Assembly: GCA_927405585.1 (NCBI GenBank)
Contig: CAKMJS010000054.1
Location: 1 to 64,000, forward strand
Length of the DNA stretch: 64,000 nt
Source: an uncultured Desulfosporosinus sp.
GTDB lineage: Bacteria; Bacillota; Desulfitobacteriia; Desulfitobacteriales; Desulfitobacteriaceae
Direction of reading: 5' to 3'
Shown here: in pieces, positions 24,486-26,180 of the stretch
How positions within the stretch are numbered: position 1 is the first letter of the stretch
Layout of the letters: each line of letters begins with the position of its first letter
Notes under the pieces: generated by a model
What the model saw: the letters and a program-made list of their open reading frames with translations, nothing else
The model's database searches: none
Told to the model about the DNA's origin: nothing
Made by a program: the position numbers and the translations under genes

Positions 24486-25331
24486 TTAAGTCTGATAAAA
24501 AAGGGCCAAGGTTCCCGGTCCAGTGTGGCTTCCAACGACACATCCGATTTCACTGATCCAGATATCCTTCACAGTATGCAGCTGGCGAATTTCATCGGCC
24601 AATAAATGGGCATCTTTCAAACAGTCAGAATGGGAAATTCCAATTACTTGCTGTTCGGGATGAGTTATTTCATTTTTCATGACTTCAGCTAATTTTCGAA
24701 TGGCAGCGCGTCGGGAACGTACTTTTGCATAGGGTTCTAGTCTACCATCCGGTGTCATGTGCAAAATTGGTTTTACATCGAGTAATCCACCAATAAATCC
24801 TGCTGGTTTGCTCACTCTTCCCCCTTTAACCAGATATTCAAGTGTATCTAAGGTAATGACATATCTCATATTCTGGCGAATTGTAATTATTTTGGCTTCG
24901 GCTTCATCCCAGGAATCAGCTTTTGCAAGTATTTCCTGTGCTAACAGTGCAAGTAATCCATACCCAAATGATGCTCCAAGGCTATCAATAATATGCACTC
25001 GTTCCGGGGCAGAGGAGTTATCACGCATCAATTGGGCAGTAGCAAAGGTTGAACTTAAAGCAGAGGAAAGATGAATTGCTACTACTTCATTTCCCTCGGA
25101 CAAGATCTTCTCATATTCTTCTAGTAGAGTAGCTGGATTAGGCTGGGATGTTTTAGGTAATTCCTTAAAACTAGTAAATTGGGCATAGAATTCCTTAGTA
25201 GTTAGATTAACCCCTTCAAGATAGGTTTTACCCTCTATGTTCACTGGCATAGGAACCGTGACAATTCCCGCAGCCCTTGCTCGGTCATGGGGTATATCCG
25301 ACGCACTATCAACCACTAGAGTGTATGACAT
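24486..25331 (-). CDS. DegV family fatty-acid-binding protein
   Basis: A 281-residue DegV protein. Family members bind a fatty acid in a two-domain fold, and in some Firmicutes feed acyl groups to a fatty-acid kinase (FakA/FakB). Features are VVDSASDIP at the N terminus, HLSSALSSTFATA and the GGRVSKPAGF region that lines the acyl pocket. No FakA kinase is adjacent. GGAGG-like sequence lies before the ATG. A terminator upstream separates it from the 40-residue gene. Confidence 0.9.
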   Translation of the reverse strand: MSYTLVVDSASDIPHDRARAAGIVTVPMPVNIEGKTYLEGVNLTTKEFYAQFTSFKELPKTSQPNPATLLEEYEKILSEGNEVVAIHLSSALSSTFATAQLMRDNSSAPERVHIIDSLGASFGYGLLALLAQEILAKADSWDEAEAKIITIRQNMRYVITLDTLEYLVKGGRVSKPAGFIGGLLDVKPILHMTPDGRLEPYAKVRSRRAAIRKLAEVMKNEITHPEQQVIGISHSDCLKDAHLLADEIRQLHTVKDIWISEIGCVVGSHTGPGTLALFYQT

Positions 25332-25407
25332 AGCAGTACCCTCCTTCTCCTTTAGGCAACTACCATTAATTATTCGAGGAAAAGTAAAATAATCCTGCTG
25401 AACGTAA

Positions 25408-25437
25408 ATAAATGTCCATCAGATGATGGACATTTAT
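25408..25437 (-). terminator. terminator after the 40-residue gene
   Basis: A perfect 13-bp stem (25408-25420 with 25425-25437) has a 4-base loop, followed by a T-rich tail on the minus strand. It sits between the small gene and degV. Confidence 0.7.
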
Positions 25438-25486
25438 TATTATATAAAAACAATTATTATTACTTAGTTAGAGTTTTGAGGTTAGA

Positions 25487-25609
25487 TTACGACTCAAATT
25501 TTTGAATAATAGCATTTTGCCCAAAAGAAGCCATTAGTGTTGGAAGTTCCTGCTTCTTTACGAGTCGATAATTGACCTCTTCGCCTTCGATCCACGTTAC
25601 AAGAAACAT
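25487..25609 (-). CDS. 40-residue protein, unknown function
   Basis: A short gene with strong expression signals: ATG at 25609 after AGAAGGG, a good promoter upstream and a terminator downstream. The protein begins MFLVTWIEGEEVNYRLVKKQ and ends QNAIIQKFES. It has no membrane segment or Cys, and looks like one small beta-alpha unit. I recognise no family. A 20-bp perfect palindrome over the promoter -10 suggests tight repression. The 375-base space between degV and the thioesterase otherwise holds only these control sites. Confidence 0.6.
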   Translation of the reverse strand: MFLVTWIEGEEVNYRLVKKQELPTLMASFGQNAIIQKFES

Positions 25610-25628
25610 AGAATCCCTTCTTTCCAAT

Positions 25629-25648
25629 GTATTATGTATACATAATAC
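25629..25648. promoter_or_regulatory. 20-bp perfect palindrome, probable operator
   Basis: GTATTATGTATACATAATAC is its own reverse complement. It overlaps the -10 element and the expected start of transcription of the 40-residue gene, where a dimeric repressor would block initiation. The regulator is not identifiable. Confidence 0.6.
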
Positions 25649-25670
25649 CATAACCCAGAAAGAATTTCAA
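25642..25670 (-). promoter_or_regulatory. promoter of the 40-residue gene
   Basis: On the minus strand TTGAAA (25665-25670) and TATTAT (25642-25647) are 17 bases apart. This is a good vegetative sigma-factor promoter, partly covered by the palindrome. Confidence 0.65.
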
Positions 25671-25707: not shown

Positions 25708-26133
25708 TTATCTTTCACTTTTATGTTGCTCAATAATAGCATGCAAACGCGTCCATATTGCATACTGTCGGACGTCTGCAAGGTGCCCTTCTTTATTAAT
25801 AAATACATGGACTGTTTTACCTTCGGCTAAAAGGGTTTCCCCTCGATAAACATGGTAAGAGAAACGTGCTGAGCGCGACGTCATGTGATCTATACTAGTA
25901 ATAATCTTGAGTTCATCATCATAGCGCGAAGGTTTGCGATACCGACAACTAGCCTCGATGACTGCTAAACCTAAACCCTGTTCCTCAAATTGAGTATATG
26001 GAAGATCCAACTCTCGAAATAGTTCCGATCTTCCAACCTCAAACCAGACAAGATAATTAGCATGATATACAATTCCCATTTGGTCAGTTTCAGAATAACG
26101 CACACGCAAACGTGTATTTGCTGACAATCCCAT
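25708..26133 (-). CDS. acyl-CoA thioesterase (YbgC/FadM-like, 4HBT)
   Basis: A 141-residue hotdog-fold thioesterase. The motif VRYSETDQMGIVYHANYLVWFE near the N terminus holds the catalytic Asp of YbgC-type enzymes and the His-Ala-Asn-Tyr segment. Family members hydrolyse acyl-CoAs such as short-chain or 4-hydroxybenzoyl-CoA; the substrate cannot be told. The ATG at 26133 follows AGGAGGG; an earlier TTG at 26160 lacks a site. Its upstream neighbour, the LysM-M23 gene, ends in its own terminator, so this gene is probably separately transcribed. Confidence 0.9.
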   Translation of the reverse strand: MGLSANTRLRVRYSETDQMGIVYHANYLVWFEVGRSELFRELDLPYTQFEEQGLGLAVIEASCRYRKPSRYDDELKIITSIDHMTSRSARFSYHVYRGETLLAEGKTVHVFINKEGHLADVRQYAIWTRLHAIIEQHKSER

Positions 26134-26180
26134 AAAGTCCCTCCTAAGAGTAATGTACAATAATATAATGAGCCTATATT

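Follow-up and report, generated by a model that had tools for sequence, protein, structure and literature searches.

The window analyzed here (the whole stretch of 64,000 nucleotides) harbors a 40-codon open reading frame on the minus strand (25609-25487), which is preceded by the Shine-Dalgarno sequence AGAAGGG. A degV-like frame (24486-25331) lies on one side of it and a thioesterase-like frame (25708-26160) on the other. The features of the locus are as follows:

About 25404-25438, minus strand: intrinsic terminator of the small gene, with a 15-bp inverted repeat (25407-25421/25424-25438); the hairpin TGTCCATCATCTGATGGACA is followed by TTTATTTAC
25487-25609, minus strand: coding sequence of a microprotein of 40 residues, from the ATG at 25609 to the TAA stop codon at 25489-25487; based on homologs, codon-position bias, and an AlphaFold2 model with a pLDDT of 90
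25615-25621, minus strand: Shine-Dalgarno sequence AGAAGGG, read from the sequence; a G-rich Shine-Dalgarno sequence is retained in relatives
25629-25648: perfect 20-bp palindromic operator GTATTATGTATACATAATAC, covering the -10 element and the presumed transcription start
25642-25650, minus strand: extended -10 element TGG-TATTAT, overlapping the operator, with TG before the second hexamer; conserved as TGGTATTAT in relatives
25665-25670, minus strand: -35 element TTGAAA with a spacer of 17 nt, found by promoter search; TTG is kept at the same position in relatives

The frame (MFLVTWIEGEEVNYRLVKKQELPTLMASFGQNAIIQKFES) begins at 25609. Because conservation also begins there, the ATG at this position is considered the start codon, and not a second in-frame ATG at 25651, which overlaps the operator. 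A preliminary description of the region had reported the AGAAGGG site, a promoter of the form TTGAAA-17-TATTAT, and a perfect 20-bp palindrome over the -10 element and the start of transcription. Each of them was recovered, and the promoter, which spans 25670-25642 on the minus strand, additionally has the TG of an extended -10 element. The small gene had also been credited with a terminator of its own. Such a terminator is real (its hairpin has a folding energy of -11 kcal/mol) but lies outside the span of 25487-25670 that had been assigned to the gene. Equivalent terminators are present at 28 of 30 loci of the family and show many compensatory changes.

There is abundant evidence that the small frame is translated into a protein. 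Homologs are present in 25 of the 29 other Desulfosporosinus genomes searched, with identities of 72-93% and a nearly constant length, and in six of seven other genomes of the taxonomic family beyond the genus. Among the 24 members with exactly 40 codons, the differences at codon positions 1, 2, and 3, summed over all pairs, amount to 1804, 654, and 4731, and, for those members of the genus that allowed a value to be computed, the dN/dS relative to the gene of the window is about 0.04-0.2. The small gene is under strong purifying selection. The evidence from homologs, from codon-position bias, and from the conservation of the operator is overwhelming in each case and goes beyond chance; by these comparisons the frame is a real protein gene. 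The same lines of evidence strongly support the regulated 40-residue protein with an operator over -10/+1 that had been proposed in the preliminary description; a search of related genomes with the 20-mer and the protein found reading frame and operator both conserved, and neither a lack of homologous frames nor variation typical of noncoding DNA was encountered. A noncoding RNA or leader located between operator and terminator, without any protein gene, would agree with the short transcript and the strong terminator but is hardly conceivable and, as the sole function of the region, is refuted by the protein-like codon-position variation and dN/dS. Moreover, the protein remains recognizable across families at about 40% identity, and a scan against Rfam yielded no match above the gathering score, only sub-threshold chance matches on the hairpin.

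The family extends well beyond Desulfosporosinus. In a sample of the phylum, 44 of 398 genomes possess a homolog, usually of 38-42 residues; they represent 25 genera, and the family was recorded in Desulfosporosinus, Paradesulfitobacterium, Acididesulfobacillus, Desulfotomaculum, Ammonifex, Desulfofundulus, and further Clostridia. The small gene was not found in four Desulfosporosinus genomes (G001, G012, G025, and G029); the completeness of G012 is only 67%. All four have the ispE-linked GntR gene discussed below, and G001 retains the operator of aspA. Neighboring genes vary between families (degV and thioesterase; an amidotransferase and a PrkA-like kinase; others), and an assignment of function by gene neighborhood was rejected for this reason. 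Small size, tight control, and shifting neighborhoods are also what a toxin, an antitoxin, or a phage-derived protein would display. Such an origin is nevertheless very improbable, because nearly every genome has just one copy of the gene, which is conserved throughout Desulfosporosinus, has no partner gene, and is unmatched in the plasmids and viral contigs searched and in PHROGs.

The microprotein had no match in sequence and profile searches of Pfam, NCBIfam, PHROGs, and PDB. In the first alignments the motif LVTWIEGEE hardly varies, and distant members deviate from it slightly (TWLEGEE, TWINGEE); literature searches for the peptide motif and the regulator yielded nothing direct. AlphaFold2 predicts a confident beta-beta-alpha-beta miniprotein (mean pLDDT 90.4, pTM 0.64), for which a Foldseek search against PDB and viral models gave no significant structural match (nothing below E 0.5).

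The operator is as distinctive as the gene it precedes. None of 100 shuffles of the window contained the palindrome GTATTATGTATACATAATAC, even when three mismatches were allowed, and in its own genome it is unique except for one copy with three mismatches before aspA. Within the genus, the operator region TGGTATTATGTATACATAATAC is almost invariant, and the DNA upstream of the -35 element is close to random. Among the distant homologs, the exact core TGTATACA is present within 100 bp upstream at 25 of 28 loci, a few of which represent one genome fetched twice, so that the independent number is somewhat smaller; as a background, these loci contain the core twice in 123,783 bases, which corresponds to 0.0015 per 100-base window. 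The exceptions are L082 and L199 (one genome, one mismatch) and L221, which has no operator upstream. Four more distant loci examined later also carry the core, and the consensus operator of the distant homologs is AATAnTGTATACAnnATAC. Read across these alignments, the operator is linked to the small gene in different families despite changing neighbors. In the Desulfofundulus-type homologs (L080, L201, and L213), the operator is doubled (TGTATACAAGTATACA), which suggests two overlapping sites. A half-site motif, in which the extended -10 element is fused to GTATACA, was rejected as a genome-wide promoter class, since the only genomic site with at most one mismatch is the one described here.

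The preliminary description had matched the palindrome neither to LexA nor to any other operator that it recognized, a statement that has to be revised. Operators of the FadR subfamily of GntR regulators follow the consensus GTM-N0-1-KAC (PMC4494728), which is fitted by the T-GTATAC-A core with its T/A flanks, a palindrome in an A/T-rich context. Moreover, the central 10 bp of the operator (ATGTATACAT, 25634-25643) are identical to the site of Atu1419, an FCD-type GntR repressor of the VanR group from Agrobacterium fabrum. Atu1419 binds exactly ATGTATACAT, as defined by crystallography, reads it through Ser44, Arg45, Thr46, and Arg49, and has sites that overlie -10 boxes (PMC7797058), an arrangement shared by the operator of the small gene. 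By contrast, the palindrome studied here is longer (20 bp), Atu1419 controls the degradation of hydroxycinnamates, and the overall similarity of the candidate repressor to Atu1419 is modest. By its base sequence, the palindrome is a recognizable operator of the FCD/FadR-subfamily GntR type.

The candidate repressor in the same genome is an FCD-type GntR protein encoded next to ispE (G000:C55:39603-40310; L127), which scores above the cut-offs of PF00392 and PF07729. It aligns with Atu1419 over SRTPVREA without a single change, and its recognition helix (SRTPVR), identical to that of Atu1419, differs from those of the other full-length FadR-type GntR proteins of the genome. The ispE-linked regulator reaches the cut-off in 29 of 30 genomes (in G050 by a weak, paralog-like match only). 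In G084 and G085, two carriers with small genomes, no true GntR protein was found besides it, and the carriers G030, G089, G090, and G091 encode it as well; other GntR clades were rejected as regulators, because none of them has a member shared by the carrier genomes. No GntR gene was found in the carrier G083, where ispE ends at the contig edge at which the GntR gene would begin, so that the absence probably reflects an assembly gap. Together, these observations indicate that the ispE-linked protein is likely the cognate repressor.

The core might instead be read by a different repressor, either another GntR protein or an unrelated regulator, although this is considered rather unlikely. SRTPVR helices are common among VanR-type GntR proteins, so that the pairing with the operator is not unique proof, and no operator site was seen at the ispE-linked GntR gene itself. 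In addition, a paralogous FCD-type GntR clade with the same SRTPVREA helix, which could share the operator, is encoded next to a polyprenyl-synthase-like gene in three Clostridia MAGs (G089-G091; L151, L152, and L153). This paralog, however, is absent from G030, G084, and G085, which have both gene and operator, and GTATAC with the symmetry of the operator fits the FadR-subfamily consensus.

Further copies of the site point to the metabolic context of the operator. The operator occurs before the aspartase gene (aspA) in six Desulfosporosinus genomes, including the genome under study, where it has three mismatches to the full 20-mer, and in Acididesulfobacillus; the assignment as aspartase was above the cut-off of TIGR00839 in both genes tested. 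Other sites are located before the glutamate dehydrogenase gene in two genera (Acididesulfobacillus and Paradesulfitobacterium), between gdhA and gltB in G045, before the malic enzyme gene in Desulfofundulus, and before an ABC transporter in G011, whose binding protein is nearest to an aspartate/glutamate-binding model but remains below its cut-off. The sites at aspA, at the gdh of Acididesulfobacillus, and at the malic enzyme gene share the placement of the one at the small gene: each overlaps a -10-like hexamer, and the register is the same. By our own count, about 12 of 21 extra sites are found at metabolic genes of the aspartate/glutamate type; about half of the extra sites (with at most one mismatch) are at genes without an obvious role in nitrogen metabolism, such as hisS, an Fe-S oxidoreductase, and a nitroreductase-like gene, and some are intragenic. 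The operator is best read as the mark of an aspartate/glutamate (nitrogen) regulon, of which the microprotein gene is the commonest target found.

Weak sites with two mismatches number 27 in the genome under study, compared to 17 for the reversed control, and those inspected are mostly intragenic. They were left out of the regulon except for a pair that was retained as a lead: two weaker TGTATACA sites (L046/L047; G000:C45:1409 and 1679), about 270 bases apart, upstream of the substrate-binding protein of a branched-chain amino-acid ABC transporter. Two Desulfosporosinus genomes (L107:2990, L109:3000) have a copy of the palindrome (CATAATGTATACATAATA) about 280 bases before a hisS-like gene. 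The region between a yidC-like gene and aspA (L002:780-1480; G000:C137) comprises about 700 unusually GC-rich bases without a convincing long open reading frame and contains repeated GTGTCACACAAG-like words.

The distribution of the sites also bears on the signal to which the small gene responds. The stress, metal, or envelope signal suggested in the preliminary description found no support: a protein induced in this manner is suggested by nothing more than the general pattern of tight control over a small gene, whereas the other sites are at the genes for aspartase, glutamate dehydrogenase, gdhA/gltB, an aspartate/glutamate-type transporter, and malic enzyme. The microprotein sequence has no conserved Cys/His cluster or membrane segment, and operators of this type belong to FCD GntR proteins that respond to metabolites. 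A role in stress, metal, or envelope responses is very improbable.

The mechanism proposed instead combines elements that are established at the level of sequence (gene, operator, promoter, terminator, their deep co-conservation, and the extra sites at aspartate/glutamate genes) with steps of lesser certainty. The microprotein gene would be free-standing and transcribed alone, with its own extended -10 promoter at one end of the transcript and its own terminator at the other. An FCD-type (VanR/FadR-like) GntR protein, most likely the ispE-linked one, would bind to GTATTATGTATACATAATAC and block RNA polymerase at -10/+1. The effector of the repressor would be an aspartate- or glutamate-related ligand; a carboxylate or an amino acid that signals the aspartate/glutamate status probably frees the site from the repressor. 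The microprotein would then be made together with aspartase, glutamate dehydrogenase, and the products of related genes with the same site, in the same or in other species. With its beta-beta-alpha-beta fold, it probably binds a protein partner, which may be an enzyme of nitrogen metabolism, a transporter, or a PII-type protein. As a whole, a GntR-controlled microprotein that responds to aspartate/glutamate status and acts on a protein partner is the best explanation of the locus and somewhat more probable than not; its specific role as a protein-level modulator in nitrogen and amino-acid metabolism can be proposed only tentatively.

Alternatively, the microprotein might be a feedback co-factor that attaches to the FCD GntR protein and adjusts how it binds DNA, forming a loop rather than an arm that acts on enzymes. 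A loop predicts that the small gene is the most consistently conserved operator target, as was found here, and small proteins that modulate transcription factors exist, for example PipX (PMC7760959). This alternative is nevertheless unlikely, because the ispE-linked regulator is more broadly distributed than the small gene and occurs in many genomes that lack it, and is therefore not dependent on the microprotein.

An action of the microprotein on a protein partner in nitrogen metabolism would have parallels in other prokaryotes. In cyanobacteria, the genes of the glutamine synthetase (GS) inactivating factors IF7 and IF17 are repressed by the nitrogen regulator NtcA, and PirA binds PII (PMC7760959). 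These proteins are small, like the microprotein, and tied to nitrogen metabolism, as the microprotein would be; they act via protein-protein interactions, whereas the resemblance of the microprotein is restricted to size and regulon context, and the class of regulator differs. The small protein sP36 of Methanosarcina mazei, which likewise stems from an overlooked small open reading frame in a nitrogen context, binds a transporter and GlnK1 (PMC10714827) but is longer (61 amino acids), relocates to the membrane, and is archaeal. The content of the regulon has its analog in regulators of the GdhR type; GdhR of Neisseria is a GntR-type regulator named for its control of glutamate dehydrogenase, according to the respective reports (PMC5388806, PMC6957213). 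The likeness to IF7/IF17, PirA, and sP36 is at most one of analogy, and membership in those families is not claimed. To our knowledge, there is no sequence link between the microprotein and IF7/IF17 or PirA, and we know of no microprotein target of GdhR.

The microprotein probably serves as a regulator in the metabolism of amino acids and nitrogen that has so far escaped notice. More speculatively, it may be the principal target of an ancient and hitherto undescribed circuit of Firmicutes, in which an aspartate/glutamate-sensing FCD GntR protein controls a microprotein of 40 residues, which in turn acts as a direct switch of a central nitrogen enzyme, a transporter, or PII, a Gram-positive counterpart of the cyanobacterial GS-inactivating factors. 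The family is missing from the annotation libraries searched, yet it is widespread, with 25 genera in a single sample of the phylum, and is tied to a specific operator. It thereby offers a handle on a conserved GntR regulator for which the literature searched holds no described role, and on how sulfate-reducing and related anaerobic Firmicutes control their amino-acid and nitrogen metabolism.
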